Assembly (NCBI GenBank): GCA_001986395.2
Contig: MQVO02000002.1
Span: 2,046,001 to 2,110,000, forward strand
DNA: 64,000 nt
Source: Irpex lacteus
Taxonomy: Eukaryota; Basidiomycota; Agaricomycetes; Polyporales; Irpicaceae
Reading direction: 5' to 3'
Position 1 is the stretch's first letter; each line of letters starts with the position of its first letter. Below the pieces are notes generated by a model, which did no database searches, was not told the DNA's origin, and saw nothing but the letters and a program-made list of their open reading frames with translations. The position numbers and the translations under genes are program-made. Positions 38,090-64,000 of this stretch are shown piece after piece.

Positions 38090-39647
38090 TTACTCTTCAT
38101 CACTCTCACCGGCATTCACACTGCCATTCCTCCCATTGCTCTCGGAGTTACCAGCATCTGTATCGATGTCGATGGTGGCAGCCACTTCGGACGCGAGAAG
38201 CACTTCGTGTTGGGCATCGGACTCAGCCACAGTCTTGAGAACTTGAGGGCTTGTTGGATAGCCATAGAGCGCGATGTCGTTACTGAGAACAGAAGCAAAG
38301 AATCTGATTCATGATGTGCGTGAGGAAGTGAGGTTCACGATAGACTTAAGAGGTGTTCCGTACCTGGTTTGCGCCTCCAGTCCACCTGGGCGCGAGGTTG
38401 GAAATTCACTGCGCACGGTTTCCAGCCCTTTATCAACAGCTGCCCAGAGCTTGGAACCGTTGGTCTTCACGTAAATGTAGCGCTAATATATTGCCAGTGC
38501 ACAGACAGTGAGATAAATCATTGAACAAGATTGTATTACCACTTACCAGGTAAGCAAAGCGTGCACATATCTCCGCGGTGATCACGATGTACGATTTGTC
38601 ATTCCCAACACACTTCTTGACAAGGGCTTCGACGTTAACGGCATTTTCTCGTTTCTCAAGTTCCGAGTTAGACCCAGCACTGGGCTTGCCAACCGACTCC
38701 TTGATCTGATACAGGTAGTCAGAAGCCAAGTCAGGTACACTATGAAGGCTATAAGTACTGTGATATGACTTACATGCCTCTTGAATTCCTTTCGTGAGTC
38801 TGAGCATCGGGTTCTCGCATACTTAGTGATGACCTTGATCTTGGGAGGCGAGTCGCTGATAGCCTTCGTTAAGCCCCAAGACGGATTGCGAGACAATACT
38901 CCCTGTGTAAAAGAAACATCCCAGAGACGATTAGTTTTGCTGGAATTGGGCTGCTGTGCACGTACGATTATAAGACGAGGGGCATCGATTAAGTAACCAG
39001 GGGTATGGTGGGACGTCATAACAACACACTTGTACTTCTCGAGTTGTGTCTAGAGTAGACCGTATTGCATTGGTCAGTATCGACGAATAAATCGACCCAT
39101 ATACCACGCAACGTACCTTCAGTTCACCGCCATTGATCAGTTCAAATGGTGCATCAACCGGTTGAATGAGATCAATACGCTCGTGCAGTTGTAGCACGGC
39201 GCAGTATTCCATAATGTTGCGTTCAAGGTCGGGCTATTATAAAATATTGAAATGTCTTGACGTGCCTTTGGAGAAGTGAAGACTCACCGCCGACGCATAT
39301 AGAGCCAATTTATCTTGGATACCTTGTGATAAGTTGGTTCTGCGATGAATGCGGCGAACAATACTTTCTGCTTCTCCGGGTGCTTCACGCCGTTTCCTGC
39401 TCAGCGTATTCAGCTGTAAAGCAAAGGGTCCGACAACCTCAGATGATTTGGAAGCTTGCATGGATCCTGACATCAGCGCCTCGTCTGCTTGCACGGAAGC
39501 AGCACGTTCCGGGTCCAAGGGCAGAGACAACAAATCATCAGGATCAGTGGGCAAGGGCCTTCCGACTGGTGTTGTGAGACGTGCTTGTGATTGCTGCATC
39601 TGAGCCCTAAGGTCTTCGATAAAATTGTCAGGTAAAGAGCTGGCCAT
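38090..39647 (-). CDS. Partner protein of module 1 (Agaricomycete orphan family)
   Basis: Seven exons (39288-39647, 39117-39233, 38966-39049, 38774-38902, 38547-38705, 38364-38482, 38090-38303) give 393 residues from MASSLPDNFIEDLRAQMQQ. The N-terminal third is polar and low in complexity. Conserved-looking elements: RTNLSQGIQDKLALYAS, PSWGLTKAISDSPPKIKVITKYART, VITAEICARFAYLRYIYVK, SKLWAAVDKGLETVR, FFASVLSNDIALYGY; the tail is acidic (SESNGRNG to ESDEE). The gene at 62,706 shares this plan: WGLPPNIE and HHRSEIKKK, FWDVVDDVLSTIR, FAAILDADRKKYG. No known domain recognised. It is divergent, 261 bases from the large module protein, which argues for co-regulation. Confidence 0.75.
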
Positions 39648-39908
39648 TGAGTTGACCACGATGAGAATAAAGGAGTGATTAAAACAAAGATGAGAGTGCG
39701 TCGTGGGCGAGGGCGTGGGGGAAGTTGTGGTCCCAGCTGGAAAGAAAACTTCATATGGCAACCCCGGACTTAAGTTGTCTCGGAGGAGCTCAATGACGAT
39801 TCACTCGGTTAGAGGATCAAATCATTTGCACGGGAGGAAGCCGTACCTCTCGATGAGGAAATTGCAGTATCTCAGCTGCACACTGCGTCTTTTACCTTTG
39901 AGTCAAAA
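39648..39908. promoter_or_regulatory. Bidirectional promoter spacer of module 1
   Basis: 261 bases separate the two divergent start codons of module 1. Module 2 has a spacer of similar size (238 bases). Content is GC-mixed with no recognised binding site. Confidence 0.5.
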
Positions 39909-42900
39909 ATGCCTCGAGTCGGTAAACAGAAACAATTGCCTGATGGTAAGTTCTTGAACACACTTATATTCGTGAAAGTAACTCACAACTTCACAGAGTT
40001 CATAGAACTCCCACCGATAGATGGAAACGACGGCACCATTATCCGATGCGTGCCATGTTCTGAACATCTGGGCGCAGAACATCATCTTCGTCGAGCTGGT
40101 CTTGCAGGGCATCAGAAAGCGACAAAGCACAAACGTGCTTTGCTTTGGTGCGAAGAGCGCAAAGAGCACAGGAGAGCAATTGATCGTAATGTCAGAGCAG
40201 ACCTGGCAAAGATTGCTATTCTGCCACACGTGCTGCTTTCACACACACAGCCCACGGCACCGCAGCTGGAGTTCTATCCTGAGAGTTGTCTCGATAATCT
40301 TGAACTTGATGATAACGGACTGCTCACAGATGGGACGGGCATGCCTATTATGTTGGGAGCAGGCCAAGATCCAGGAGCAAAAGCCGACATGGACCTGCAA
40401 GCAGAATTGGAGAACTTCTGTTTATACGGACACTTAAATCCACGCACCTCTGTTGCCGGAGAAGATCTTGAAGGAATGTTTACCATGGAGGAAGATATGC
40501 CGTTGATAACAGCTCAATTGGCGGCAATGGGTCAGTGATTCTATACTTTATAAAGTAGCAGCTTACTGATGGACTGTCTCGGTTATCATCCTAAAGGACT
40601 CGATGATAGAGAGGAGGAGGAAGAAGATGTGACTACTGGGGGTCCCTACGCTAGCGATAGAGCTAAGAGTAATGAGTGGCATCCTTACGGGACAAAGACA
40701 GTAAGTAAACTTGAATAATGACTCGCCTTGATACGTACTAGTAGACTAACTTCTGAATCGCCATAGATGTTCTTTGTCGCATTTCTTGACAGTCAGCCAC
40801 GACTTCGATTGTCAGACGACCACTTGAAGTCCATTCTTTGGGTAATGAAAGAATGTGGCACACCAAACGTGCCATCCTTCTCCGCACTTCGCAAGCTCCA
40901 GGCAAGGCTTAAATCTGTGATTGGCCCAGCAAGTCAGCATCATGTCTCGACTCTTGGAAACGAATTTTATATGAACAGTGCAGCCCAGATCTTCCGTCTT
41001 GTCAGTTTCTCTTCCTTTCATAGTCTAGATGGTATACTAACCTATAGGGCAGGATTTCGCGAACCCACTTGTCCGTCCGCAGCTTCATCCGTATTTAGAG
41101 GAGTCACCATCGATCTCAGAATTCTATCAAGCGGCACGTCTGAAGACAGAGAGGTCCGACCTCTTACAGTTAATGTGGGCAGACTTTAAGAAAGCTCCGC
41201 GTCAGCATTACTACATCAAAGAGGTGGCGCAGATGTCAGATGGTACCTTTGTCATCCCCATGAGATGGGTACGCGTTGTTAGAGATAACAACCAGACTGT
41301 TGACTGCGCGGATGCGCTTAAAGTTATCTATGATAAGGCAGTGAGTAATCTGCGTGATAGAAGAGGTTTGTTATCTTACTAAGCTATTGGCTGATGTTGT
41401 GGTAGACCGGCCAAGCGACATTTGCAAGCAACCAACTGGTTCGGATTCGAGCAAAGGACCTGCAATATACATATCTGAACCTATGCGAACAGAATTACAC
41501 CTTCCGCTTCAGCGGTACGTACTAAAGTTAGTGCACAAAGTTTGAACATCTGAAGACTAAAGGCTATCATATAATGTTTACCAGAAGGCGCACCTGACTG
41601 GTGCGGAAATATGCCACATCCGGTGCGAATAAAGGCGAAGGGTCGTCCTACATTTACCATCGGAGTCATGAGTTGGGCAGACGACGTATCTGGAAATAGA
41701 ACGAAACAGTATAACGCGCACACCAACGTTTACCTTGCAAATCTGAACGCACCTCATGCCATGTTGCAGCAGGAATACTTCGTCCGGTTTTCTGCTACAT
41801 CACCATACGCATCTGCGTTGGAGCTACTCGACGGACTCTCAGATGATTTCGGTTCCGACCTGTGGCACGAAGCATATGACTGTGAGCTGGAAGAAGACAT
41901 AATGTTTCGACTTATACCAAGGATGGATCCGGCCGACAACCCTCAGCAGTCCGAGCTCTGCTCACATATTGGGATGAAAGGGAGCTGCTTTTGTCGACGA
42001 TGCAAAGCAGGAGGAAACTTGCAGCATGTCACCAGCGAGGTTGGATACGATGATCTATTCAGAGTAAGCAATTTAGCTGTCACAGCCGCTGTACATCATG
42101 TCATTAGCCAGCTCACCATGGTGTCTGATTAGCCTACAGAGGCACGCACCGCAGCAGAAACAGTGTCTGAGATCAAGAAACAACTCACTGTTGCAACACA
42201 TGGGGTTTCTGCGACTGTAGAGGCGATGCAAACTGCATCGGGAATCAAGGACCCGATTGCGCAGCGCTGGGTTAATATACTGATCACAAAAAGCAGAATA
42301 TTGCGCGAACAATACATTACCAATCCATTGACTCAAGACAGACGCTTCAAGGCTCCTGCATTGACAAAGCAAGCTCGTCAAGAGATCCGAGAAGATGTTG
42401 AGCGGAGGATCGAGGGTGAGCTGCTCGAATGGCTTGCTCAACAACCCCCGCATCGCTACGCAAAGATTCCTGAAGACTCAGGTGAGTGGAGTAATTCCGT
42501 TCAGAGTTACATGACTACTTACAGTTCATCGAATAGCTTTGCGACATCAGATTCGCCCTGGAGATCATTTCAACAAGTTACTTACCATTGATGGTATAGA
42601 TCCATAGACTTTCACTGTTATTGATGTCTTACACGTTTACAGGGCTTGATGTCCATCGTGATACACTCGTCGAGATTCTACATACCTGGTCGCTTGGTGG
42701 AGGAAAATATGCCTGGCATAAAAGTACGACAACATGGAACGAGCAACAACTCACTGTGTTATCGGTTCGGCTTCAATCGTCTTCGGTCGACGGGCTGTCT
42801 GTGTTTCCAATCCGCGGAGAATATCTTGTGAAGTACAGGAATGCCCTGGTAGGCAAGCATCTAAAAGCCATCCAGCAGGTTATAGCATTCCACGTGCATA

Positions 42901-44468
42901 GCAGTCTTGACGACCCTCTGTTACTTGCACTCTGGAGGGCGACCGGTGAGATGGGAGCATTACTTCACTACCACAAGATTGATGATCTTGAAACGTACCT
43001 GGTATGTCAAGGTACCTCCGATTGGATGTCGTTGAACTTGCTAACAATACAAACGTTGGATACACTTAAAGGAAGATCTACAAGTCCTTATAGACAATGT
43101 TCTAGACGTCTGGTCAGAGATCGACCCCCTGCGGATTATTGAAAAAGGAAAGCTGCACATACTTACACATCTGATTGACGATATCCGAAATGCGGGGCCT
43201 GCCATTATCTACTCCACAGAAATCTTTGAATGTTGGAATGCGGTGTTCCGCATGTGCAGCGTGCTGTCCAATCATCAAGCACCCAGTCGTGATATCGCAG
43301 AGAGCTTGGGAGAGCTTGAGTGCTTCAAGCATATAGTCAGCGGTGGATGGTGGATTCCGGAGTCAGGTGGTATTACACGCGCCGGAGACGGTGTGCGAAA
43401 CCTGTTTACTTCACGTCCGGACGTTCAGCGGAGGCTGGGTTGGGTGAATAAACCGCTTCAAGCCCCAGGTAAGTCAAATTAGCATGTCACATTAAGGAGT
43501 GCTCGAAATTCTAATGAGCTTTACCATAACTCGGGCCAGGTTCCGTTAAGCCAATGAGCCAAAGACAACGTACCGCAAAGTCTTGGGATTTAATATGTGA
43601 ATCTGAACACCTATCGCAAGGCACGCTTGACCCGGTCGATGCCAGTGTCCATCCCAAGAACGCATGGGAGTATGGAGTGCACGTCATCTCGCAAGCTGGA
43701 GATGCCTGCAAGGAAGGATCATGGATCTTCTATGAAAGTGAGAGTACATTGGTAGCACTGCAGGTACGTTAATAAAACTTGCTACCGCACTTGAAGCCAT
43801 TGAGCATCGCTTACTTACATTCATCATATTTAACCAGCCCATAGCTTCACAAATTGGGCGAATTCGACGTATCTTGATATCAACCATCACTGGTTTGGCC
43901 TTCGTACTCGTGGATCAGTACCTCGTATTAGAAGAGCCAGACCAGCGCATAAACATGCCCGTACTTGTTCGCGAGCGCATACCCGTATCCCACATCATTG
44001 AGAGTACGGTAAGAAGGCAGCTCGGAGATAGTTATGAATCTGATCACGATACTAATTAACCTGTCGTTACAGCGCGTCAGATTTATCTTCAACGCACAAC
44101 ACGATTGTCTTACCGAGGGCTGCGAGATTGAAGAAGTCGGATTTATTCGACAGGAGCGCAACACTACGTCCCGGCCTCACAAAGCAGTCCTTCACCGCAA
44201 TCAAGTTCGCTTTTTCTTAAATATGCATGGGCTCCACAATGCCGCTCTCATACGCCAGGCCCTACCTCGACGTTTCTCCAAGCCAACGCATTATCTGAAA
44301 GACAGGATATCAAAGCATCAGGAGTACGCGGCTGCCGCAAAGAAGCTGATGATAACCAAGCGGGCAGAGGCGGCTGCTCGAGCAAAGGCAACGCGCGCCC
44401 GAAACAAAGCAGCTGCAGAAGCTCCTGCATCACGCGAAAACGTACTTGAGGAACTGGTTGCAACATAA
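39909..44468 (+). CDS. Large zinc-finger, transposase-like orphan protein (module 1)
   Basis: Many exons, from MPRVGKQKQLPDG (39909-39944) to a basic tail. In order: a BED/C2H2-like finger CVPC...HQKATKH; an acidic linker; VPSFSALRKLQARL; HYYIKEVAQMSDGTFVIPMRW; a block MPHPVRIKAKGR...WADDVSGNRTKQYNAH with an Asp pair; DNPQQSELCSHIG and a cysteine cluster SCFCRRCKAGG; GIKDPIAQRWVN; DTLVEILHTWSLGG; ECWNAVFRMCSVLSNHQAPSRDIA; FNAQHDCLTEGC; MHGLHNAALIRQALPRR; and a Lys/Arg/Ala-rich coiled C-terminus. The layout is that of a DNA-transposon protein (DNA-binding finger, central candidate catalytic core, metal clusters), but I cannot assign it to a named superfamily. All blocks recur in module 2. No disabling mutation seen. 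Confidence 0.75.
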
Positions 44469-45500
44469 GTTGCATATCTTATATTGTATGCCTGTAGCCG
44501 TTTACGCTAAAGAATGATATTCATGGTGCAGCTGTTGAGATAGTATGATGTTACATACTTTGTATTGGCGACGTCAATGCGAGGCGGCTTGTGGGTGGCA
44601 CACAAAGAACCACGGGTGGGCCACAATAGCAGCACAGGCACGGGAGAAGTGGTGGCGGAGTATGAGAGATCATGATGACAAGGGCACAATTATGCGAATC
44701 GTTGGCTGGAACTGGGCGTTAATGTTCACCAGCCAACGAAATGCGTAAAAATGATCTTGTCAGCGGAGATAATGGCCGAAGTGCGACCAAGAAACACCAA
44801 CAGTACTGAACAGAGACCTATCGAGTGGCTATCATCACAATAATGCAGGTAGTGGATGAATAGAGCCGGTGCAGAGGCCAATCCTAGGAGTCCAGGGCGC
44901 ACAGAACAGCCAAAGGTTCATAAAGAGTCGAGGTATGAGCCGCATGGCAAGAGAGAGGCAAAAGTGAGCCAATATTGGGCAAGGAGCAGAAGTACATACA
45001 CATAGGCTGACAGTTTGCAATAGAAAAGAGAGGCGGTAGCGGAGATGATCGAGCGAAAACACGACGTGGCATAACATGTAACACGCTGGCAAGAGTCAAG
45101 CGGCGGATGGATGTGGACGAATATACGTCTAAAAGAAGCAATTACCGGATCCGGCAAAAAATCATTGGACGGATTCATGGGAGGACATCCTCCTTTATAA
45201 TATAAATTAGACTATGATTACACAACGAAATACCTCTATGTCTCTTCAGATTCAATATGTCTGGTAGTACTCAGGTATACCGACGACGATCATTGTGACT
45301 GTCGCAAGTCTCGACCGAGACGCTTCATCGTTTCCCCATACGTGCTTGCACCAGATCAGCGCTCGATGCTCAGCTGTCCGTCAGAGTTATCATCTTACCA
45401 GTCAGGAGTCTGAGAATCAGAAGAAATCCCGCAGGCATTTCTCTAGGCCATCACGACCAAGTCCTCCTGTAACTATCGCGGGGCGCCAAGTTGGCGGTGT
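44469..45500. other. Intergenic
   Basis: About 1 kb right of module 1. No supported gene. Three overlapping minus-strand frames around 44,835-45,178 are Ser/Leu/Cys-rich and look spurious. The right border of the module should lie in the first few hundred bases. Confidence 0.45.
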
Positions 45501-45839
45501 ATGCGATCTCGAGAGGGAGTAGACGGGCCACTGATACTTCCGCCTTCTCGGATCCCGCGTGGAACGAAATATTCTGGGAGAATGCCAGAGACTTCTGAAG
45601 TCGAGGAGCACGCCCAGGTCTCACAGTTGACACCTTCATTTTCCGCATCCGAGAACCCTCCTACTTCATCATCCAGGTCTGTTAACCCAGAAAATCGCAC
45701 GAACACTTCAGCAAGCAGTCGGCCTGTTGTAGTCGACGTATCGACTTTGCCTGGCTTGGTAGAACGTCTCACAAGACACATCCTGGCAGAACGACGACCA
45801 TCTGTTGAGGACGAGGAGCCACCGCGCTACGAAGAATGA
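45501..45839 (+). CDS. Small protein with acidic PPRYEE tail, probably incomplete at 5'
   Basis: A 112-residue frame that ends LPGLVERLTRHILAERRPSVEDEEPPRYEE. A helical stretch followed by an acidic Pro-Tyr ending is common among small mushroom proteins. The first 45 residues are Ser/Pro-rich. Upstream text from about 45257 (MSGSTQ...) may contribute 5' exons, but I could not find a join that keeps frame with an intron of normal size. A minus-strand frame of similar length overlaps; I prefer the plus strand because of the tail. Confidence 0.4.
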   Translation: MRSREGVDGPLILPPSRIPRGTKYSGRMPETSEVEEHAQVSQLTPSFSASENPPTSSSRSVNPENRTNTSASSRPVVVDVSTLPGLVERLTRHILAERRPSVEDEEPPRYEE

Positions 45840-47203
45840 GAGAACCGTGATGTACCTCTTATATTACAGAGATGGCACGTCTATAATACTTTCTACTTAC
45901 TTCGTTACTTCAAGCTGGCGTCTTATGCTGCCCGGACTGCCGGTCTTATATACGAATCCCCTCCAGTAGCTATCCCACGGTTACCAGCTCTCTCTTCAGC
46001 CTTCGTATACGGTTCCGCAGCTAGAGTTTTAGCCACAAAGTGGCTCGTCGCAAACATCTGCCAAGTAGCTCCACGTCCTCACCGTTTCGGACGCCTTTAG
46101 TACAGTCACGAGGCCAATGTTCACGTAGGCATTGTTGGGTTCCACCGCCACACACTGGCATCGGCGTGTGCTAACTATACATGTTCTCATTGCTCAGACA
46201 CTTATCTAGGTTCTACCGGCACATGTCTCATGCCTAATAGATATATATATATATAACACCACGAGAGTAAGATCATGGGCCGCATTCATCTTGTCGAGTC
46301 TCCATCCCAGTCTTCGTTTCCCGTCCCCAGCCATTGTGGTTAGTGCGAAGGAAGGCGAAGTCACACTAAGACTTCTCTTCCAGTCATTAGCAGCACAAGA
46401 TTAAGGCCTTCTGCTGCTGTGACTGGAAAAGCAAGTTCTGTAGAGGACATTGTTTTAGCCTCGAAGTCGATATTTTCAGTAACGGACAAACGGTGCGCGA
46501 GCTTCAGTATGCTGGAGTAATCAACGCTGCTCTAACTGCTGCCTCTTAACCTTCAGGCGTCACAAATCGAGAGACGTCTCCCATATAGTCTGGCTTCGGC
46601 TCAACATGACGCAGAGCCGAAACCGTGACTCCGTGAGCCCTCAATCTGAGCCATAGGGACAAAGCTTAGGTACTGTGGTAGTGCCATCACCACTGACGGG
46701 CGAAGTTCTGGATTGAACTGTCAGTAGCAAGTTGACTGTTCAAATTAACGGATTTCAGCACTGCTTTGGCTTGCTAAGACGTGCAGCACAGGCCGCGCCA
46801 TCGGGCAACATGCCATAGTCAGATGTGGATCGCCGGAGGGTCCCCGTAGCAATCTGGCACAGTAGAGCCATTTCGATGACAGGTTAACATGTGCTCATGT
46901 TATGTAGTAGCATCCTCATCTGCGGCGTAGCATGTTTACATCCGCCGCGGCGGGAGGAGGCCTCACGTCGGACACGAATATCATGGTCCATATGTAGTAG
47001 TACTACGGCATGTTATATTCAGGACGTGTGTGATTAAGCAGCGTGTAGTTCTCAGAAGTAATGTGGGCTGAAAGCTTAGTGATAGTTGTACAGCGATCCG
47101 TATCAATGTTCGAGTCCCTGATCGCCTTTTCTAACTTCCTGAATCTAAGCGAAGCGCTATCGGTCTTGTTACATTTACGCAAATACGCCGATCCTATAAG
47201 CAA
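45840..47203. other. Intergenic, 1.4 kb, with a short AT dinucleotide run
   Basis: No gene supported in about 1.36 kb. A (TA)n run of about 16 bases lies near 46241-46256. The rest has many stop codons in all frames. Confidence 0.5.
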
Positions 47204-48122
47204 TCACTGCTTGACGGCACGTGCGACGAAGAATACAAGCTTCATCCCTTCATACGTAGCCTCTGCACCGAACCTATAATCAACCGCCGTCAAGCCCGCT
47301 TTCTCGACGATGCCACGAAGCTGCGGCTCTGTGAAACCGTGTTGATGAGGCACGACATGGGCGACCTTCTCATACATCTTGGGGTCTGCGTCGACAGAGG
47401 CTTCCGGCATGAGGTCGGTGATGACAAGGGAGCCGCCTGGCTTGAGGAAGCTGGCGAGGACACGGGTGATGTCATCAACGTCTGAAAAGTGGTGGTACGC
47501 AGCCGTGCACTAACGCGACATCATGATGCGGAGTGAGATACACTAGTTCACTGTGATTAGAGGAAGACAACTTACGATTACAACATCGAATTTGGCACCG
47601 TTGAGCTCTGTATCTTCGCCCTTCAGCACGGCTCGTACCGCCTTCAAGTTCTCCGGTGGAATAGCATGCTCAGTGACACGGCGATTGTAAACATCAACCT
47701 GCATACAAAGTCACATGTGTGCACTATCGCGATCATCTATTCAGCTTACTGATGCTTGACTGATGTCAACGCCGAGGATAGACTTTACGTGCGGAAAAAG
47801 CTCTCTGGAGACTAAGCCTGTAGCAAACGACGCGTTAGCAAACGGCCATGTTTTCAGTTTCGTGGGCTACTGCCAGTGGCATACCTGTACCGCAAGCGAA
47901 GTCCAGGACTTCTGTCTTCTCTTTCTCAAACAGCGTCGGGTAAGCCTTGAGGATCACCTCGACGGCGTCCTGAGCGAGTTTCTTCCACTCAGGACGGAGG
48001 TCGTTGGCTTCGGCAGTAGCATCGAAATGGGATTCGTTCGCTGCAGCGAACTTGTCATGCTCTTTGTCTGCTGTAGCCTGGTGCTCGTGGTGCTGATGGT
48101 GGTGGTGGTGAGAGTCAGACAT
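47204..48122 (-). CDS. Class I SAM-dependent methyltransferase
   Basis: Four exons (47885-48122, 47750-47817, 47576-47698, 47204-47509) give 244 residues. Motif I VLDFACGTGLVSRELFP is joined across intron 1; motif post-I ILGVDISQASV; then NGAKFDVVICTAAYHHFSDVDDITRVLASFLKPGG and a C-terminal FGAEATYEGMKLVFFVARAV. The layout matches Ubie/Coq5-like small-molecule methyltransferases of filamentous fungi; the substrate is unknown. The N-terminus is a natural histidine-rich stretch (SHHHHHQHHEHQ), which is unusual and may bind metal. Intron 3 is about 65 bases. Intact. Confidence 0.85.
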
Positions 48123-48450
48123 TGTGGATTGATGTGTCCTCGTTAGCTAATTCCTGCTGGTATATGTAGTCGAATAGATCGGCGTACCCCCACAGTTATC
48201 GGAATTCAGAGTGAATTGGACTGGACACCGCCAGTCCAGTCCGCAGCGGATCGTCGGCCCGAGAAAGACACTGTACTAGTGATTGACTAAATCATAATCA
48301 CCTTCATTGCATGAAGAGATGCCAAGATTAATCCATCTTCAACGTTTGGATACACGAACAAAAGACGTGATAATACAGCAACAACTAAAATTACAACATA
48401 GACACTCGTACTACAAACAATATCCTGATAGCATTCGACAGCTACATAGT
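48123..48450. other. Intergenic
   Basis: About 330 bases between the methyltransferase promoter and the 3' end of REV1. No gene is supported. Confidence 0.4.
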
Positions 48451-51400: not shown

Positions 51401-52629
51401 GCAGCTCGCCATGCTGGGTCGGCCATAGCGCGTTGCGCAGCTACGTTAGACTTGTCTGCGGCATAGGCGGGAGCTCGAGCGGCTTCATCTTCATCGGGTA
51501 CGGGTGGATCAAGGTACTGTAGGGGGCGGGCCGGTGTCGTAGTGGTAGACGTGATTTGAGGCTTGTGAGGACGAGGCGGGACAAGAGCGTCTACGGCAGT
51601 CACCGGAGGTTTTGCAGGTTCGGCAACCAATACGACTTGCTTGGATGATCGATAAGAGCCTTGACGGAAGTCATCAGCTGCCTGCTCTGCTACGGCTCTT
51701 TGCGACTGCGTGGCTGCGCGAAAAGCCGACTGAGACACGAAGTCACTCAACAGAGACTTCTGAGGAGCTTTCTTGCCCTGAGTGGCCTCTAAACGTTTGT
51801 TCGGCTCATACTTGAAGTCGTACCAAGGTAAAAGCACTCCTGCCTCGACGCTCTTCACCAACCAATCCGGCGTTGCCACCTTCATGTGTTGAAATTCCCG
51901 AATCTTGGCAGGCGTGAGGGAACAGGTAATAATATGAGTGCTGAAGAGCATAGTCAGAAACCGATGCGACTCGAATGTCGTGATACTACTTACACAAGGG
52001 ACTTCTTATCCAAGTAAGCATGGAATACGCCTCCATATTGAACAATCATCTTCCGCAACTCCTGCACAGAGGGCTCTGTCCATCCGTTGATCTAGTCCGA
52101 GACTCTGGTATGTTTTCCATCGACATGAAGTGAAATCTACACTCACATATATTTGTAGACCTTGGAAGAGATTGAATGACTGTGAGTTTGGACCACTATC
52201 ATCCATCGCCGAGTTCTGGATTTGTAGCTTCTGTCGCTTCCTATGCATGTATTCCCCGAAGTCACCGAAACGAGAGGCGCCATAGGTGTCAGAGGATAGG
52301 TAGCTGGACTTGGATTGTCCCTGGTCATGGTCAATAAAGTCGATTGCATTGTGATGTGAGGTAGTCTGGACGCCGTCGTATTCTCCTTCGGATGAAGGAC
52401 TCCTATAACGTCTGCGTTTGGCACCAGCCTGAGGTGAGAGAGGGGAAATGTCTCTTTTTTTCTCAGGTTTGAGATCTAAATCGTTAAGCCCCACACTTGG
52501 AGTCGAAAACGAGCCTTGAGCCTGAACATCCGGGTTGCCTTGAAGTTCTGGTATGTTAACTTCTGCAAGAGCCTTCACAAACTCGGGGTCATCGTCGAAG
52601 TAGTCTGATGAAGCCGTTGTTTGCGACAT
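48451..52629 (-). CDS. REV1: REV1 translesion DNA polymerase (deoxycytidyl transferase)
   Basis: Eight exons, about 1,260 residues. N-terminal acidic-basic region with a nuclear signal (GAKRRRYRS); a BRCT domain from NLFQGLQIYINGWTEPS to VATPDWLVKSVEAG; then the Y-family polymerase: VIMHCDFDSFFVSAGL (first metal ligands), KPVVVCHS, SYEARKFGVKSGMSLQQARALC, AVSVDEALLDVT (catalytic Asp-Glu), VSIGIAHNVMLARLASRKAKP, and the little-finger domain ending around FMGHGICETFTKQ. The C-terminal third has ubiquitin-binding-like helices (FDALPEDLRAELEAEYKRR, FKALPPGVQREQLA with the LP core) and a Rev7/polymerase-interaction type end. It inserts dCMP opposite lesions and scaffolds polymerase zeta. Divergent with calcipressin, 279 bases apart. 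Confidence 0.93.
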
Positions 52630-52908
52630 TGAGATTTATCGTCAGCTTGCTATGCAGTTCCTGCACTGCTCATGAAATTCAATCATGTGGGATTATGCCA
52701 GAGTTTATGAGAGTTGGAAGAGTATATGCTCAGCAAACGTCCCCGGAAACTTCAAGTTGGACTCGGAGTGAACGCCACAAAGCTGATGCTTACATCAGCC
52801 ATTCTCACGTGCAACGGGCGCTTTATCAAATAATAAAAATTGCACAAGGCGCTTCTGTCATCTCATCTCTCTCTCTTTCCTCTCGACGACGAGGTGCTTA
52901 ACGTTTAA

Positions 52909-53674
52909 ATGTCTGGGCGACAGAGTCCCACAACCCCAGAGCTGACAGCGTCCGACACACCGGTCGTCTCGAGAACGAACACGCTCGTAGTAACATCGCT
53001 GCCACCTTCCTTTTTCGAGCCTGTGGTGCTCGAGGCTTTGAGAGCACACTTCGAATCCTACGGTGATGTTCATACCTGGGCACCACTGAAGGCGTTTGCT
53101 CGTGTTTTTCTCATTTACTATGACGAGGAAGCTGCCGAGCTCGCCAAGGAAGCATGCGACAACCTGTATGTCAAAGAGACAGCAGAATGGTGAGTAATCA
53201 TGGCATTTTGTTCGCATTTACTCATCGAAGCCTAGCCCGCCAACATTGCTGCGTGTCTTCCGTGGTGACCCTACACCTCTCGATCAGTTGGATAACCCTG
53301 ACTTGTTACGTCCGCCCGCACTGGAAAAGAACTTTCTCATCTCGCCCCCAGGGTCTCCGCCCGTAGGGTGGGAACAGATACGCGAGGAGCCACCTAACAA
53401 TACGCCGCTTGCCGACGATCTCATTGCTGCTCTGACGAAGCTACAACTTCAACGCGAAGCACCTGGACAGCATGGCGTAGAGGTCCTAGTGGAAGCGGAG
53501 GAGGGTGTGGGCATCAGCATATGCGTCGAAGATTGTGGAGGAGGCGATCTGCCGACTCCACCCGAGGTCGTAGAAGGGCATCGATGGTCTTATGGCTTGG
53601 GCGCGATAGCACAAGCCAAGTCGCAATTCAAGCCGGTGCCAACAGCTTTACCTCCAGCCCCGTCCACATCATGA
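52909..53674 (+). CDS. RCN1: Calcipressin / regulator of calcineurin (RCAN)
   Basis: Two exons (52909-53189 and about 53236-53674) give 239 residues. The N-terminal RRM-like domain runs TNTLVVTSLPPSFFEPVVLEALRAHFESYGDVHTWAPLK...RVFLIYYDEEAAELAK. After the splice comes LRVFRGDPTPL and the hallmark FLISPPGSPPVGWEQIREEPPN, the conserved SP-repeat and ExxP region phosphorylated and bound in calcineurin control. The acidic C-terminus (EVLVEAEEGVGISICVEDC) is also typical. It modulates calcineurin, and thereby calcium-stress and growth signalling. Intact. Confidence 0.92.
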
Positions 53675-54459
53675 GATACCCTTCGTGAGTGTCCCCCTCC
53701 CCGCTTTCGATATCCACCATCATTTGTGATGATACAATTTCTCAGACCTGTACCGATCCCATGAGGACGTGCGGATACCATATATTGCCTTTTATCTGAC
53801 ATTCCCCATTTTATGCTTCATCGTTGCCAGTGACTGACATACTTGTATTCAGGCTACACCACACTCCCTCGTCATTGGATCATCTATTGCAGTGAGTGTC
53901 GTATTCTACATTTTTCTTGTAGGATGAGAAACATTCAGACCTGTTCTGACCATAACTCGTGGAGAAAACCAAATTATTGCCAATTGTTCCTTCTGATATT
54001 CGCTGCTCTCTCTTCGTCTTGAACGTCGTGCTGACCAGCTCCTTACAGTTGTCTTTTCTATCTCCTGGATTCGCATCTGTACCATATCAACATCGCATAT
54101 CAAATGGACTCTTGGATTGTCTCGATTTGTACCTTTATGCTCGTAGTCCGTTCGTTGTATGAATACTATACCCATATCTCCATGCAATTGCTAATGTGTG
54201 CATCCAGTCGAATGATGGAGAGATGAGATATTGTTGTCAGTAGCAAAGGTACGGCTACAAGCGATGGTGTACGTGAACGAGAGATGTGAACGAAAGGAAT
54301 GGATATACAATATTACGGCAACAAGCCGATGAAATACAGCGTCCACGGATGTATACAGTACGTGTCCACGAAAATAGCGCAAAGCAAGATAAAAGGGCAT
54401 ATTGTAAACGTATGTATGGATCTAGACATCAGTATGCATCAGTATCGAACAAGTGCAAC
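53675..54459. other. Convergent intergenic region
   Basis: About 785 bases between the 3' ends of calcipressin and the membrane protein. A further small exon or UTR intron of calcipressin is possible near 53,690-53,880 (donor-like GTGAGTG). No other gene is supported. Confidence 0.4.
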
Positions 54460-57400
54460 CTAGAACTGGGCGTCGCGAAGAAACGGATTACGAGAATTGC
54501 CAGTATGGGACGGGGTCATCCAGTACGCCCCACGAGCATCAGCCACAGGTTGCTGCTGCTGAGTGAGAGTGTACTGCCGCGCAAACTCCTGCGCGGGGGT
54601 AGGCGGTCTCGACGTCTTCAACAACTCCTCCATCGTCGGGGGCGGACTAGCCTGAGTCTGCCGCGGCGGAACAGACCTATCCGACGTAGTATCCGAGAAT
54701 CTCGAAGGCAGCAGATCCCTCGCGTTTCGCACCGGCTGTCGCGGTTCAGGTGCTCTACGTGGTAAACCAGTTACCTGAGAGTAAATCGAATCGTGCGTGA
54801 GCGATGCCCCAGAGAGACGTTGGCGGGCACGGTCTCGGTGATATTCATAGTCTTTCAGCGAGGGTAGCGGTGACGGCCCTCGACTGGATCCCGCTCGAGA
54901 GTACTCGTATGACTCGAGGAGCTTGTCCATATCCCGATCGTAGCCAGCCTCGTCCACGGAGCGCGAAGTAGGAAGCTTCTCCATCCTCACCTGCTCGACG
55001 TCGTACCTGGCGGGTACCACCATCCGGCTGCGTTTGTGGCCGAAGAGCTTCTCGCCAAGGCGGACCAGACGCCACCTCCAGCCGCCGGGACGGTCGAGAC
55101 GTTTGGCGTTGGCGAAAAGCGCGGTGGCTTGTGCACGCTTCTTGCGGGCGTGACGTCTCCAGAGCATGAGTATGACGACGAAGATGAATGCGCACCCCAG
55201 GGCCATGAGGAGAATCTCCCACCATTCGAGGGGACGAGACGTCGAAGTAGTGGTGGCGGGGGTAGAAGGAGTGTCTATTCCGCTGATGGTCGGGAGAGGC
55301 GCCACAGAGTTCGTCCCAGATGGCTTGGGTACCAAGACGAGGTCGGAGAGACAGAGTCCAAGGCCTTGTACGACGCTCGAAGAGCCGCTGCAAGTAGTGG
55401 ATACACAGCTTCCTCCTCGCAAGATCTGTGTTGAGCTCGAACATGCTAGACAACTGCTGGGACCAGCCCCAGAACAACTCGAACAGCTGGAATCGCAGGA
55501 CTGGCAGGAGGAAGAGGTCTTGTCAAAGTATTGCGACTTGCTACACGTAGGCAGGCATCGGCCGTTCGTCAGCACCGGACGATCCGAGGGGCAGCTCGAG
55601 CACTGGTTGAAGGACTGTCCGCTGCATGTGGCGCAGTCCGGATGGCATGTGATACAAGAGCCGGACGAGCTAAAAGTGTTTGAAGGACAGGACGCAACGC
55701 ACTTGCCGTTTGAAGCGAGCTGGTTGTTCGCGCATGTCAAGCAGAATGTCGAAGAGCCAGCGCATGTACTGCACGATGAGTCGCAAGCTGTACACCTCAC
55801 CATCAGACACGGAGTTATGAAGTTTAGGAGAGTATAACGTACCGGTACACGTCAGATTATCTTGAGGACTCAGGAAAGTCCCAGAAGGACAGCTCTCGAC
55901 GCACTTGCCCTGAGATAGGACGAATCCAGGTAGACAGCCCGTGCACTGCACCTGATCGATAGTGGACGCCACACTGAAGTTCGGGATCTTGCAGTTCGTG
56001 CATTTTGACGGACAGCTGTCACATTCATGCTTGTTGTTATCAGCAATCATGCTTGAGCCTTGACAGACACCATTTCCGTCCGTTTGCACACAAGTTCCGT
56101 TCAATGTGTACTTGCCGGAGCCGCAGACGATACAATCGTTGGACGTGGATCCGGTGCACGTCTGGCAGAGTGGAGAGCAAGCAGTACAGGAGGTACCGCT
56201 AGAGAAGCTGCCATCAGGACAAACGGTGCCCGTGGAAGTGACCGACTGAGGGGCAATACACTTCGTCCGGTCGTTGGCGTTCTGAGTAAATCCGGTCTTG
56301 CAGGAGATGCAGTCCCCCGTGCTGTCAGCGCACTGAGAGCACCCAAGTTGACATACTACCAAATTATCAGCATACATGCACATATACGGACAGAAGCGAC
56401 TCAACATACCTTGGCAGTTCCCGTCAGAGTTCAAGAAGAACCCGTCAGCGCACTTGGCACACGCAGTCCCATTCGTACCCGTAGTCCATCCTGCGTTACA
56501 CGTACACTCCCCTGTCGAGCCACACACGCCGTTCAAGCAGTTGCAAGACGACGGCGGGTTGCTCACAGGCGCACTGAGGCATCTGCCACTTCCAGAGACA
56601 CCATCGTCGCAGGTCTGGCAGCCGTTTGGACATGCTTGACAGTTTGGACCGAAGAAACCCGTAGCGCAAGACTCGCACGAGGAGCCTGAGAACCCAGGAG
56701 GACAGGTACATGTCCCAGATGCAGAGCATATACCTGCACCAGAGCACGGCGGTGAACAGGCCGCAGATTGAATGTCGAGCAGGGCGATGCTATTCAAGGT
56801 AGAGCCAGAAGGGAGTTGTGAAAGGTCTGGTATCGAATCCCACAGGACCAGGCGCTCCGAGGAAGAAGGTCCAGAGGATACGGCGGCCCATATGTTGGAC
56901 GCAAGGATCACGGAGTTGGCGGCGGCACTGGTTGAATCGCGCGTCGCGTTCGAGGTGGGGAGTGCTGTGAAGACGGCCGCACCGGAGTAGTTAGCACCAG
57001 GGTAAGTTGCGATTCCTGGTTGGAGGGCGAGGTTAAGTGGTAGAGAGAAGGTGGTTGAGTTTCCATTGGCGAATCCCGGAGACAATGCAAGGGAGGGAGA
57101 GGACGACGTGAGTATTGAGCTCAGCAGTTGCGGGTTCGTTGTGGATGTGTATTGTCCAGGGAGGAGTTGTATTGTTGTCTTTGCGCCTGAAGACGAGATT
57201 GTTGCTCCGGCTGAAAGGTTTCGTTAGCTTGGACGCGTTCTCTATGGCCGGAAAGTAATGACAACAACATGGGCAGGACGCCTATAGTCTGCCGGACACT
57301 CGCTCCATACCCTGCCCCAGGCCACACAGCGCGAGCGCACTATTCCTCACTGTCGATAGAAAACTGACACTCACTCGTTATATTCGTGAAACCCTGAAGG

Positions 57401-57546
57401 CATTGACCCGCAACGCAAACGACGGACGGGGTGAATTGTGCAGCTAATCCAGCAGATTAGACCCGGCCCCGTTTGACACAAGACACGTACTCACCTGTAG
57501 ACACAACGAGCGAGAAAGGAACGACAGCGAGAAGGCTCGAAAACAT
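54460..57546 (-). CDS. Large cysteine-rich type I membrane protein with EGF/furin-like repeats
   Basis: Five exons (57495-57546, 57375-57443, 56410-57210, 55843-56355, 54460-55787) give 920 residues. Signal peptide MFSSLLAVVPFSLVVSTG; a Ser/Asn-rich ectodomain of about 250 residues; an EGF-like unit (CSGAGICSASGTCTCPPGFSG); then many furin/TNFR-like units of the C-x2-C-x3-C-x2-C type (CHPDCATCSGQ, CDSSCSTCAG, CPSKCTNCKI). One membrane helix (ILLMALGCAFIFVVILML) is followed by a basic stop-transfer RRHARKKR and a 230-residue cytosolic tail rich in Ser, Pro and Arg with poly-Gln. It has the architecture of a cell-surface sensor or adhesion receptor; the ligand is unknown. Intron 2 (about 164 bases) is the longest here. 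Confidence 0.85.
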
Positions 57547-58013
57547 GGCGAGCTCACCAGGAGGAAACCGAGAAAGAGGCGGGAGGCAAGAGACACGTCG
57601 TCCGCCTATTTGGGGTGAGGGTCAGTCCAGCGGGGTGGTTTCTAAAAATGATTGCCATGGTGCTCTTTTGTCTTTGTGACTTTGCTCGACGACGCGGAGT
57701 GAGCGCAGTGCTTGTTATTGTCCTTCGCTTGCCCGCTTCGAGTTATTGTTCCCAAAAGGGAAATAGGCGCATCAGATATCTCCCGAAATGGTAACCACGC
57801 ACTACACCGCCAGTCGAACGAGGTGTGACTATGAGATAGAGCGCCTATCTGTATCCCACGCGCGTGGCCGTCTAGCTCCCTCGTGGGTCCCATGTAAATT
57901 CCAGACGATGTACCCTATGTAGATCATGAATAGATGTTATGGGTAATCCATATGAAATTCTTGCGGTATATTACATAGGTGAAGACATAGAATTCAGATT
58001 GAGTTGAACAAAA
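57547..58013. other. Intergenic
   Basis: Promoter of the membrane protein and 3' end of the module 2 large gene. No gene is supported. The left border of module 2 probably lies here. Confidence 0.4.
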
Positions 58014-61000
58014 TTACCCGGTAAACTCCTCCATAATGAACTCGAAGTTACGGGCAGCGTCGTTGTGTTGATCATCGGAGTCCGGTGCAGGTGCGTCGAT
58101 GCGGGGTCGCTTGCGGCTTGGCTGTGGTACTGTTCTAGTCTCCATGTCCGAGTCCGGCTCAGGTTCGTGCAAAGCAGTGGCTGGACCTGCCTGTTTTCCT
58201 TGCGCTTTCTTCGCGTCTTCACGCTTCTTCTTCTGTTCTGTGCGCTTTGTCTTCTGTGTCCTTCGTAGTTGCGCTGCCCACTCGGTATGTTTAGCGAGAC
58301 GGTCTTGATAGATACGCTTTGGTGCAGATAATGTCCGTGGAATAACAGCACGTGTTAAGTGCGTGTTGTGGAAAGAGTGCATGTTGACAATGAAGCGATC
58401 AGTGGACGAGGTGTGAATATGCTCGATGAAGCTCTCAGTAAGTCCAGACTCAAGCCGCTCTTGAATCTGTGGTCGCTGTCCAGAGGCCGTGCATCCAGCG
58501 TGGATACAGTCATGCTGGACATTGAAGTCGAACTTGATGTCCTGGATATTAATGAAACCACTCCGTTGATGTCGTCACTAACACTATATCAATACAAATA
58601 TCACGTACTGTTGTCGGAACGATCATGGTTGTTCGTTCTCCATGGCGTTGCTGGAGGTACGGCATACCAAATGTCACATGTCGCTGCGCTGCTAGAGACC
58701 ATACATGAATCACGGCAATTGCTTTCGTCGTGGTGTTTGATGATGGCTGCGCAATCAAAATCTCCTCGATGCGCCCAGCAAGAGTCTCCAAACTCTGAAG
58801 ATGTATGTTAATTCACTGTTGTGAGGGATCTCAAGGCTGATACATACATCAATTGGCGAGGTGAAGAATACCCATGCACCAGTAGCACATCGATCTTTCG
58901 CTTGCGATATGACAGATTGTGCGGGAATCCAAGATGTCTGCATCGAGGTTGAATATGTGCCATAGTTTATAGCGTCCTTTGCTGTGGTATCTGCCAGTAA
59001 AAGCGTAGTTCGTGTCTTCGTTCCGCGTGCAAGGGGTTTCGGTTTAGCGTCGCCTAACGTAGTGACATTGAGAATTTGGGCGATACAAAGTACGAATTTA
59101 GGCTCACCGGCGTCCACCACCTCTGGTTGATTCCATCCAATGAGTCTCTGTATGATCGGATGCCTGGCCAGCATTACCCGAACACCGCGACCAGCAGCGG
59201 TCCATGTTCCATCCTTCTTCTGCCATAAGCCGCCAGAGAGTCGATGCTTGAGACCCTCTTGATCAGCGAGTTGCAAAGCGATGTCACGGCTAGGTGCTCG
59301 ATGATTGGATAAAATAGAACAATTTCGAAACACAGCGTTGAATGATTCGAAGGATTCCGTGCATACACCAACCAAAGGACCAAATCGCAATATATCCTCA
59401 CACATATGTGCGTGCAGGTGTAGCTTAATCTTCTGCAGAATCCTCGACGGATCTGACTCAGCCCAAGTGTCCAAAACGTTATCAACAGCAATAGAGACGT
59501 CCTCCTATAGCGAGATCAGTCACAATTCGTTCGAGGGACTCAGATGCACTTGAACAAAAGTTTCTTACCATGTACTGTGCCATATTCTCAATCCTAGGAT
59601 ACCACATAAGTGCCGACAGTTCTCCGACAGCGCACCACAGTTGAAACTTCAATGGAGAGACCAGATCGTGTATATGAAACACCGTCGTTTGCGTCAATGT
59701 CTTCAGCTGTCGTCCGATGAGGGAGTTTGCATATTGCATGATGTAATTGGCTCGGATAGCATGCACCGATAGTCCGTGAGTCATTGTACTTTGCAATCGA
59801 AGAGCGTAGGTGGCTTTCTCAGCAGCAGTCCATTTCGTGTGTGTTATATGCCACCCGTACTTTACCAATCCTAACAGAATGGTATGCAGGATCTCAACAG
59901 GCGTATCTTTCGTTGGATCAAATCCTAGAACGTAGGTTTCTCAACCACGAGCTTCCGACAAAATACGTGTGAAGTGCTTACCTTTCAAGCCCAGAAACCC
60001 ACTATAGATGATATCTTTATTATCCGCCACCCATCGAAGAAGCTGATCGTGAATCTCAGCATCGCTCAAGTTGCTAGATTCATCATCTTGCATCTCCTTC
60101 GCACGAGCCAAGAGAGCTTCGATCCACTTCTGCGTATAAGCATCCTTCACACCGGTTGCGGTTTGTAGGTTCTTGATTGGCTGCATAACCCCAGAACACG
60201 CAAGATCCAGCTGCTTATCAATGCATTGAATAATCTCCTCCTTCGAGCGAGGTGGTCCTGGCTAGATGCAAATAAGTGCACTTTAGCATTTGATCTGGGC
60301 GAATCGTTCAATAGTTTACTCACGTGGAATAGACTTTCAAACCCGTTTGTACTTTCTTTCTCCTCTGTCGTACCTCCCACTTTGCATTTCCGACAATTAC
60401 AGTTGCCGTTACCGCCAATATGTGCGGAAACTTCACTCTGCATCGGATTATCAGACGTCTCTGCACTCACGAAAAGGCGAAAGCACACAGGCTTTTTTGT
60501 GATCGCATCAATAACGCGTGCAGGTTCACGATGAGACCTCCTATACGAAATGAATTTAGCTCAGTTACTCTACCTATGGAGTTTGTCAGTACGTACTCAA
60601 GAATTTTCTTGAAGGCTCCGAATTGTTCGGTTGTAGTAGCATGTGTAGACGTTGATATAAAATGCGTATGGTACTGTTGTTGTACCAGCTCACGCGGTAG
60701 ATTTCGGTGTGTGATATAGGCGTTTAGGTGCTTGTTCCACGCCTTTGATACGTTCCCAGAGACGTCGTCACCGAAGTAGTCCACAAAGCTCGTGTAAATA
60801 GGAGCACCATCTGCGACTTTACGCAAAGGATGCGGCATTACGACGGTAAACTCTTCCGATGCAGATCGAACTATCATTACAGTTAGTTCCAATGCAATGC
60901 ATAAGGTAGAGTTCAGAACTTACGGTCCCATGACAAAGGTAATAGCTGCGCAAATTCCAGATCAAAATAGTTATCTTTGAGATCCGTTGCAGGAATCATG

Positions 61001-62467
61001 ATATTCTCGTCAAAATGAATGTGCGCGATATTCTGAACAATACAAGTCATTATCGCAAATGGTTTAGTAGGGTAAACAACTACTGACCGATGCATTAAAG
61101 GTGACTCTCCAGGACTGTGCATGGAGTCGTCGTCGGTATATGATCCAGCGGAACGGTATCACAAAACTTCCGTCATTTGTGCGAGCAAGCTCGTTAACGT
61201 AGAAATGTCGCTCTCCGACTTCATACATTGGACTTAGAACATCCAAGTCAACATCCTCGCGCCACTTAAGTCCATGCCAGACTTCACTGACTCCATCGCT
61301 AGGTATTTCGGGATACAGTTGAATGTGTGGTCGTATTGAGGGATTCGACCAGTCCTATAACAGAGTTAATAGGTATATCACGTTAGTGGCAAATCAAAAA
61401 CGTACTCGTCCAATTATTGTGAGTGGATCATTGAGATAGAATATATTCCCGAGTGGCGACTGACACTTGATTGTAGGGATACCAGATTCAGCTCGAAGTT
61501 GCGCTTGAATTTTACGAAGTCGATAGAACGAGGGCACATTTCGAACACCTGCTTCCTTCATGACAAAGAGGATTGCATGCATCATCTCGTCTGATATTCT
61601 CATACGTGGTAACTGATCTAAGAAGTCTAGAAGAAACTCCTACCAACCAGTGGTCAGTATGTCATCATCGCTCTATGCTGTGTCAACAGAGGCTTACCGG
61701 TTTGGAGCTATACGGTGCCCATTCATCATCTGAGGCTGCAGAGCTCTCTAAGCTATTTATGTGGTCATCATCTATAAGTACACAAGCCACGAACCGAGTT
61801 TACTTAGCAATCAAGTTACACAGAATGGTTTGATACAACGATCGACTTACAAACTTTACTGAGAAGCTCAGCAAACACGACATCTTCTTCGTCATTATCT
61901 GCCAATACTCCCTCTTCTTCGACACCGATCGGCTCCATTGAAGCAAATCCCAGTTGCCGAGCAGCTTCCCCAGGATCGCAAAGGATGAGATTGTGACAAT
62001 CACGATCGAGCGCGTCACGTGCAGCATCTCGTTCGGCGTCAGGGTTGTCTCCTGCAGTGAACGGAAGTTGGGCGCCCTGCAAGTCGAACTCCTCCCACAT
62101 CATCCTCTCATGCGCCGACATCCGACCTCTTGTCTCTGCCGGCTCTGGTGCTATTGGACGGCTCTGGAGTTGAATAAATGACTGCTGGATGGCCTCCTGC
62201 TGCTTGACTCTGTTTCGTTCTTGGATCTCTTCGGCATCTCTTTCCGCCATTGCTCTCGCATGCTCTCTCGTTTTCATGTGGCCGTTCAGGTTTGGTCGCC
62301 GAATCCATGCTTTTTCAGGATCTCGAGCAGACAAGATGCAAATTTTACATCGTACGTATTCTCCATTTTCTTTTTCTTCAAAGACTGATTCTGAATTCAG
62401 TGAGCTTCTCTGAGACGCGTCATATAGAATACTCACAGGCAGGAATTGGCTTGCGATGAGCTGGCAT
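58014..62467 (-). CDS. Large zinc-finger, transposase-like orphan protein (module 2)
   Basis: Minus-strand multi-exon gene. The first exon (62437-62467) reads [10 protein letters not shown] and joins by a 52-base intron to [17 protein letters not shown]...HMKTREH, a BED/C2H2-like finger. Blocks shared with module 1, in the same order: [47 protein letters not shown]...[28 protein letters not shown] and [92 protein letters not shown]. It ends with a Lys/Arg/Gln-rich coiled region. Identity with module 1 is low outside these blocks, so the copies are old. No stop or frameshift was needed. Function unknown; likely DNA-binding and transposase-like. Confidence 0.75.
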
Positions 62468-62705
62468 CGCGTCCCAGATGGCTGAGCAGTGTGTCCAGTG
62501 CGTGAGGGGAAATATCAGGTGCGTGGCCGTTCACTTTCTCAGCTCCGATGCTCAAAATAATGTACGGCCGTGGCCTGAGCGTGGCCGCAGAGGCCTTTTC
62601 CCCAAACCGGCCAACAAGACTCTGCCAGAGGCCAACATCTGTCTGGCTTATAAAAGGTGAGTTTACGGCACCTTTTTTTCTGCATCTCACTCTCCTGTCC
62701 GCACA
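62468..62705. promoter_or_regulatory. Bidirectional promoter spacer of module 2
   Basis: 238 bases between the two divergent start codons, matching the layout of module 1. No site recognised by eye. Confidence 0.5.
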
Positions 62706-64000
62706 ATGGGAGGTCGTCGCAAGAGCTCTCGCAACAACAATTCGACTGCTGCAGCCCCAAATGCTGCTCTGCAAACGTTACTCAACACCATCCGGGAAGC
62801 CGAAGAAGAGTCGCGCATTAATCCTCAACTGAATCTCTCTATCCTCGGCAAACGCACTCGTGACGATGGCGATGGCAATAGCGACGGCGAGGGATCACAA
62901 GAGCCGGCTGAAGATGACACAGCCGACAACGCTTCAACCGCCGCCAACCCAAGTGAACCAACAACTCACGACAGAGTCAACCAGAATATTGCTACATACG
63001 CGCGGAACTACGCGTCTCGCCATGGGTTGCCTCCCACACAAGTCAAAGAAGTCGAAGAATTCTCACAGGTATGTTTTGATGTCTCTTATAATCGTGGTGC
63101 ACGGTATCTCTGACACAGACAAGGACTCCGAGGCCGCACAACGCATCAAGTCGTTTGTCAGACTGCTGGTTGTCGAGAAGAAACTCGATCAGATTGTCAA
63201 GGACGCTGGATTCGAAGTCCCGACAGAGCTTAAGGTACGTAGCGTCGTGCTTCTTTCAAATAACATTGCATAGTACTTAACGTTGTCTTGGCAGGATAAT
63301 ACATATGATTATGCGGAGAAAGTCCTTCTATCAGCTGATGTGGCACAGTATCGCGGAGACTCGTTGAAGGTGAATGCCGAGGTAAGCCATTTATACCAAG
63401 TCTCAGTGCATGGCCGTAACTTCACCCATATCTATAGAAGGTCATCAGAGACTGCCGGTGGGGTCTTCCCCCAAACATCGAAAACAACCATCACGCCTGG
63501 AAAAAAGTACGCAAAATGATTGACAACGCATTCACTCACCATCGGTCCGAAATCAAGAAGAAGGTGAGTAGGACGCTATGATCACAGCTCACCTATACCC
63601 TGAACGTCTTCTATTAGGTGCGCAATAGTATGGAAAATGAAGATCCGGCGAAGTGCTGGTCCATCATCGAACTGACTGAAAAGCTCGTGGCTGGACGGAA
63701 CATCGAGGTCTCTTGGCCGTTGTGCGGAAGGGTGGCTCTGATGGTGAGTACACTTTGTCAAGACTTCAGATTCAATTTACTGACCGTAGGTGCATCCAGC
63801 GCGCAACCTATCTCACTGAACCGGGAGATCCGTTCTGGGATGTCGTTGACGACGTCTTGTCAACTATCCGCAGCAAGAAAGATGATTTCGAAGTCCGCAA
63901 GTAAGTAATAGTTTTATCGATCGATTCTTGAGCGTGTCATTGACCACTTCTCAAAGCACATTCGCGGCCATTCTCGACGCTGACCGTAAGAAGTATGGGC
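62706..64000 (+). CDS. Partner protein of module 2 (Agaricomycete orphan family), truncated by window edge
   Basis: Starts MGGRRKSSRNNNSTAAAP and continues through at least seven exons to the right edge. Regions: polar N-terminus with an acidic stretch (RTRDDGDGNSDGEGS); VNQNIATYARNYASRHGLPP; SEAAQRIKSFVRLLVVEKKLDQIVKDAG; YDYAEKVLLSADVAQYRGD; CRWGLPPNIENNHHAWKKVRKMID; HHRSEIKKK; FWDVVDDVLSTIRSKK; FAAILDADRKKYG at the edge. By comparison with the module 1 partner only the C-terminal tail of a few dozen residues should be missing. The family is unassigned. It is divergent with the module 2 large gene. Confidence 0.72.

Follow-up and report, generated by a model that had tools for sequence, protein, structure and literature searches.

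Two modules lie in inverted orientation in a 64-kb stretch of Irpex lacteus DNA (contig MQVO02000002.1, positions 2,046,001 to 2,110,000; the window), and each pairs a large gene with a smaller partner gene transcribed away from it. Both modules are almost certainly DNA transposons. Taken whole, they are best explained as complete-looking two-gene transposons of one superfamily, independently inserted, each encoding a transposase of RAG1/Transib type and a partner that serves it as cofactor; we put the probability of this reading at about 75%. The scan for relatives covered the organism's own genome (44.3 Mb, 317 contigs) and a protein database; genes and introns are of fungal type.

The two divergent pairs, their coordinates and the spacers of 261 and 238 bases had been proposed in an initial annotation, and spliced gene models bear them out. 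The models come from our own splice script, which in degraded copies (that on C58 and parts of that on C313) may have passed over stops as introns. The modules had also been described as strongly diverged yet collinear, and they are: the large proteins (large 1 and large 2) are collinear end to end with 32% identity (560 bits, E printed as 0.0), and the partners are 26% identical over 196 amino acids (E 6e-12, in a one-against-one comparison). Judged from these alignments, homology exceeds chance for both proteins, the link between the partners being thin. The length enclosed, first given as about 13.5 kb, is 12.3 kb between the elements. The true units (37,621-45,499 and 57,805-64,415) are longer than the coding spans because the transposon ends lie outside the genes.

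Element ends and the interrupted host gene

A search for terminal repeats and target-site duplications around the modules had been suggested. Terminal repeats with TA are present on both, and for element 1 the TA is demonstrably duplicated. Elements 1 and 2 have CACCGC...GCGGTG ends that adjoin TA, and the transposon segments under discussion are bounded by TACACCGC. The right end of element 2 lies 415 bp beyond the window edge. The flanks of module 1 hold two TACAC/GTGTA pairs, the better of which is TACACCGCC at 37,619 with its mirror ending at 45,501, a 9-nt match; the chance of 8-mers like TACACCGCC and its mirror in both flanks is about 2e-4.

Element 1 splits a membrane-protein gene. When its flanks are joined with exactly one TA they form a single open frame, and with zero or two TA they do not. 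Alignments of the joined protein to the four paralogs read as DNA (one has a stop) all continue across the join, with conserved blocks on either side of it and a loose middle. The joined protein has 28 matches in the genome at E up to 1. Two are the halves themselves, separated by 7.9 kb; among the remaining 26, 12 extend uninterrupted from query residue 9 or earlier to residue 160 or later. Because the single-TA join restores the host frame, element 1 is an insertion and the TA its duplicated target.

The genome contains 56 exon matches to large 2, which by visual inspection fall into about a dozen loci. Family A comprises modules 1 and 2 and the copies at C313:1.097 Mb (L040) and C51:0.634 Mb (L041), each of which has a partner-family gene transcribed away from the large gene. 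The ends TACACCGCCARTCG and CAACRCGCGGTGTA are common to module 2, L040 and L041, and blastn similarity between L040 and L041 breaks off exactly at them. A 14-base family-A end pattern, which itself included TA, occurs five times in the genome and not at all in a reversed control; three of the five are module 2, L040 and L041. The remaining exact TACACCGCCARTCG matches, at C187:1007361 and C308:2938035, have no large gene known beside them and may be non-autonomous or degraded copies.

Ends of the form CACGC...GCGTG, again beside TA, mark a sister family, B (on C188, C40, C313:165k and C21), three of whose loci were checked at both ends. Its C188 and C40 members are 94% identical over 9.5 kb in unrelated flanks, and this similarity begins exactly at TACACGC and on the other side extends four bases past GCGTGTA. 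In all, CAC...GTG ends adjoin TA in 7/7 elements checked at both ends.

Counts of 8-mers and 10-mers against shuffles revealed no convincing subterminal repeats in family A: the 8-mer CATATGAA occurs three times in element 2 (shuffle maximum 3) and the 10-mer TACATGTATA four times in the pooled C313 and C51 ends (maximum 3). In the family-B element of C188 (L051/L042), GATATCC occurs nine times in the two subterminal regions (maximum 6). An inverted repeat, CGTTGGCTGG / CCAGCCAACG, was seen by eye at 44700-44740 of the window, in noncoding DNA of the right part of element 1, its 10-mer being counted twice.

Table 1. Positions of the two elements, their genes and the interrupted host gene, numbered from the first base of the window.
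Feature	Coordinates	Strand	Description
Element 1, DNA transposon	37,621-45,499		7,879 bp; ends CACCGCC...GGCGGTG; interrupted host gene
Left TA target-site duplication, element 1	37,619-37,620		within last coding part of membrane-protein gene
Right TA target-site duplication, element 1	45,500-45,501		flank join
Partner (accessory) gene 1	38,090-39,647	-	7 exons, 393 aa, spliced model
Divergent intergenic spacer, element 1	39,648-39,908		261 bp
Transposase gene 1 (large 1)	39,909-44,468	+	13 exons, 1223 aa, spliced model
Interrupted membrane-protein gene, left part (open frame)	37,350-37,618	+	looks transmembrane
Interrupted membrane-protein gene, right part	45,502-45,839	+	tail ends EEPPRYEE stop
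Element 2	57,805-64,415 (in-window 57,805-64,000)		6,611 bp; right end read in adjoining contig sequence L002
Left TA flanking element 2 (target-site duplication)	57,803-57,804		end comparison
Transposase gene 2 (large 2)	58,014-62,467	-	14 exons, 1205 aa, spliced model
Divergent intergenic spacer, element 2	62,468-62,705		238 bp
Partner (accessory) gene 2	62,706-64,041 (in-window to 64,000; last 41 bp past window)	+	7 exons, 315 aa

The large protein and its family

The large protein has the DDE layout D, D, C(2)C, H(3)H, E. Conservation was scored in 49 of 120 listed homologs: D468 is present in 49/49, D554 in 47/49, E836 in 48/49 and E839 in 47/49, the catalytic glutamate being E836 or E839. 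C573xxC576 and H815 are each present in 49/49 and H819 in 48/49. A zinc-finger-like stretch near the N-terminus was recognized by eye.

Structural modeling predicts that the core resembles RAG1, known from the immune system, and Transib, the fold type of the CACTA/Mirage/Chapaev/Transib (CMCT) clade, and that the C-terminus is probably a BAH-like domain, similar to those of chromatin proteins. The fold listings re-align Foldseek's own candidates, so the lack of other folds in them says little. Certain PDB entries are taken by us to be BAH-domain structures and the RAG1 residue numbers are those we presume to apply. Compared by sequence against solved structures, the family as a whole gave three matches, all with E 1.6 or worse and none meaningful; similarity to RAG1 was not detected in this search at the sequence level. 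The Pfam BAH profile matched none of 11 members at E up to 10; five cellobiohydrolase rows at E 1.5 appeared instead, and BAH was rejected as a sequence-level assignment.

Neither large protein and neither partner has a Pfam match above cut-off (0/4). Transposase_21 (PF02992) has no match in large 1 or large 2 at E up to 1, nor in two other copies from this genome; a Transposase_21 frame of the genome shows weak profile similarity (E 4e-4, Prob 35). Plavaka (PF18759) likewise has no match in large 1 or large 2, and hhalign against a Plavaka frame gives E 0.28. The matches of both families in this genome lie at other loci, none of the 107 Plavaka exon matches falling at a locus of the RAG1-fold family. 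One of these 107 Pfam matches, at C308:2044232-2044417, lies roughly 1.6 kb outside the left edge of the window. The ends agree with those of the CMCT clade (5'-CA..TG-3' in most cases, with duplications of 2-5 bp), being CAC...GTG with TA, and lack a CACTA core in the terminal inverted repeat, which has CACCGC in family A and CACGC in family B. By the four features tested the large protein fits the CMCT clade, and by the same kind of evidence it is neither a Transposase_21 CACTA transposase nor a Plavaka protein.

One database search found 1,066 relatives of the large protein. The 120 listed come from mushroom-forming fungi, often Mycena; they are named hypothetical or uncharacterized proteins and are without a Pfam domain.

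The divergent partner gene

A complete partner gene was modeled at four loci; each of these has a large gene transcribed away from the partner, and the modeled start codons are 216-261 bp apart. The initial annotation had held that the pairing would be coincidence if the two families were neighbors no more often than by chance; in this one genome every complete partner locus has its divergent large gene within 261 bp. A truncated partner remnant on the twin contigs C4 and C140, retrieved with the C51 partner, stands without a large gene within the 4.9 kb of C4 that were read. No divergent second gene was found at the C58 copy.

The partner proteins have few detectable relatives. As whole-genome queries partner 1 and partner 2 each found only themselves, and the C51 partner retrieved partner 2 at E 0.07 only, did not retrieve partner 1, and gave a weak match on C255 (E 6.5e-7). 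In the protein database the sole relative, in both searches, is P0001, a record of 181 aa that spans 38% of the query; scoring in the second search was restricted to the 7,999 candidates with most shared words. Matches of partner 2 to Pfam RUN, PFU and DUF3306 all fall below those profiles' own cut-offs and were discarded. Among the four pairs, ranking by identity to module 2 gives one order for both genes, with C51 nearest, C313 next and module 1 last. The C313 and C51 partners are 74% identical over 319 codons, with dN 0.18 and dS about 2.1 (near saturation), values that point to purifying selection on this pair.

In family B a divergent second gene is present in 4/4 elements, and its product has no detectable similarity to the family-A partner (hhalign E 0.88). 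The divergent slot is thus occupied in 8/8 elements of families A and B, the C58 copy being the exception. Because the family-B partner is unlike the family-A partner, the slot is kept while its protein changes.

From these features we infer that the elements transpose, that the two products act together, and that the partner has an accessory role like that of TnpA. On this reading the large protein is a cut-and-paste DDE transposase with a zinc-finger-like N-terminus, a RAG1/Transib-type core and a BAH-like C-terminus; it would cleave the element at its CAC...GTG ends and integrate it at TA, which is thereby duplicated. The divergent partner would be a functional part of the element that evolves fast; most probably it is a cofactor, TnpA-like or RAG2-like, that assists in recognition of the element ends.

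It is less likely, though a serious competitor, that the large gene encodes the transposase and the partner is a passenger, a transposition repressor or an anti-silencing protein. Such a role would suit a slot that holds different proteins in the two families, and other fungal DNA transposons carry TET/JBP genes reported as probable counters to silencing (PMC12730594). A slot filled in all eight family-A and family-B elements, and purifying selection in the one pair measured, argue against it.

Origin of the copies and related transposons

In a FastTree phylogeny built from 49 database proteins and 5 proteins of this genome, with the C58 copy as root, large 2 forms a group (support 1.0) with the C51 copy and the Irpex and Cytidiella proteins. 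Large 1 falls outside this group and outside the other database proteins; its relatives are under-sampled because the database homologs were fetched with large 2. Since the tree separates the two large proteins, the copies do not derive from a local duplication, and the old divergence first proposed for them holds. On this phylogeny modules 1 and 2 are two insertions of separate lineages, and their inverted arrangement is probably due to chance.

The initial annotation had offered a transposase with an accessory factor, or a selfish or domesticated system. The former is favored by the transposon ends, the TA and the recurrent pair; domestication is disfavored by element 1, a plain insertion that splits a gene. 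A two-gene host system recruited to a cellular role and no longer mobile might account for the intact genes, for the lack of near-identical copies in this genome and for the purifying selection on the C313/C51 partner pair. It is very improbable given the ends beside TA in 7/7 elements, the disruption by element 1 of a gene that has paralogs, the degraded and interrupted copies that occur in the genome, and the near-identity of two family-B elements in unrelated flanks. An ancient duplication of a segment bearing a host gene pair, with inversion inside the region, would suit the inverted orientation, the 12-kb distance and the equal gene order, and is weaker still, as each unit has its own transposon ends and large 1 lies outside the supported group of large 2.

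Several observations concern other copies. In the C313 copy an exon skipped by the splice script is an open frame. The family-B copy at C21:53001-73000 (L048, L049) contains a roughly 7-kb insert between two identical 538-bp direct repeats resembling long terminal repeats, and the C188 copy is interrupted by a single repeat 97% similar to them. The C21 element is enclosed by a 50-bp inverted repeat (96%; 55328-55377/72259-72307) starting TAAGGTAGGCG, as if nested in another transposon. L045 (C1:1.75 Mb) and L046 (C187:0.998 Mb) are degraded copies sharing pieces 87-94% identical several kb beyond the transposase fragment, with one inverted piece between them. Window positions 45862-46800 align over 985 columns, 80% identical, near a transposase fragment at C187:876k (L050 2643-1688), the alignment reaching the query end; this is probably a dispersed repeat, because the frames are broken. 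A scan of viral contigs for cross-species pairs gave 22 pattern matches, none confirmed.

Plant CACTA elements have CAC-type ends, as do the elements described here, and CACTA/EnSpm elements encode, beside the transposase TnpD, the accessory protein TnpA, which binds subterminal repeats. RAG and Transib ends also start with CAC, a further likeness. The present elements differ from CACTA/EnSpm in lacking a Transposase_21 match in large 1 and large 2, in having CACCG or CACGC rather than CACTA ends, and in their TA target. The Schistosoma CACTA element SmTRC1 starts with CCC (PMC1636069); it shares the 2-bp duplications reported for it and a second protein, described there as probably fast-evolving, for which relatives were not found and a TnpA-like role was proposed. 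That protein is a splice form in SmTRC1, whereas here it is the product of a separate divergent gene. ESTA, an EnSpm-like group of rust fungi (PMC12730594), is similar in its CMCT-type motifs, TA duplications and a transposase that is RAG1-like by HHpred; it differs in host and in carrying TET/JBP genes, as compared by description only. Plavaka elements of Agaricomycetes (PF18759) have similar hosts, belong to the CMCT clade and in part have 2-bp duplications, but their ends, as given in PMC12730594, are TGT..ACA or CATCA..TGATG, not CACCGC. RAG-like and Transib elements (PMC7204232) share the predicted core fold and the combination of a transposase with a second gene. The RAG2-like gene is convergent there, whereas the partner is divergent here, and the present elements differ further in the 2-bp TA duplication, in the BAH-like module inside the transposase and in the absence of RAG1 sequence similarity in the PDB search.

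Functionally the system works like a CMCT cut-and-paste transposon with an accessory gene, a kind of transposon already known. The lineage, the partner families and the BAH-like module were not met in the open-licence literature, among the matches listed. No transposase with a BAH domain was recognized among the literature matches listed; the BAH protein of PMC3599309 is not described as a transposase in the portion seen. Tentatively, and with the odds against it, these elements may represent a large unnamed lineage of mushrooms in which a RAG1-fold transposase is fused to a BAH-type chromatin-binding module and accompanied by a divergent, fast-evolving cofactor, an independent parallel to RAG1 with its chromatin-reading RAG2.

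This set of hypothetical mushroom proteins thereby gains a likely identity as transposases, and with it a target site, element ends and an associated partner gene, so that the transposon annotation of mushroom genomes could be corrected. Excision can be tested directly on the allele split by element 1. With its RAG1-type core and probable BAH-like module, the large protein makes it possible to test for chromatin-guided transposition outside animals; if the BAH-fused lineage is real, chromatin state would steer cutting or insertion.
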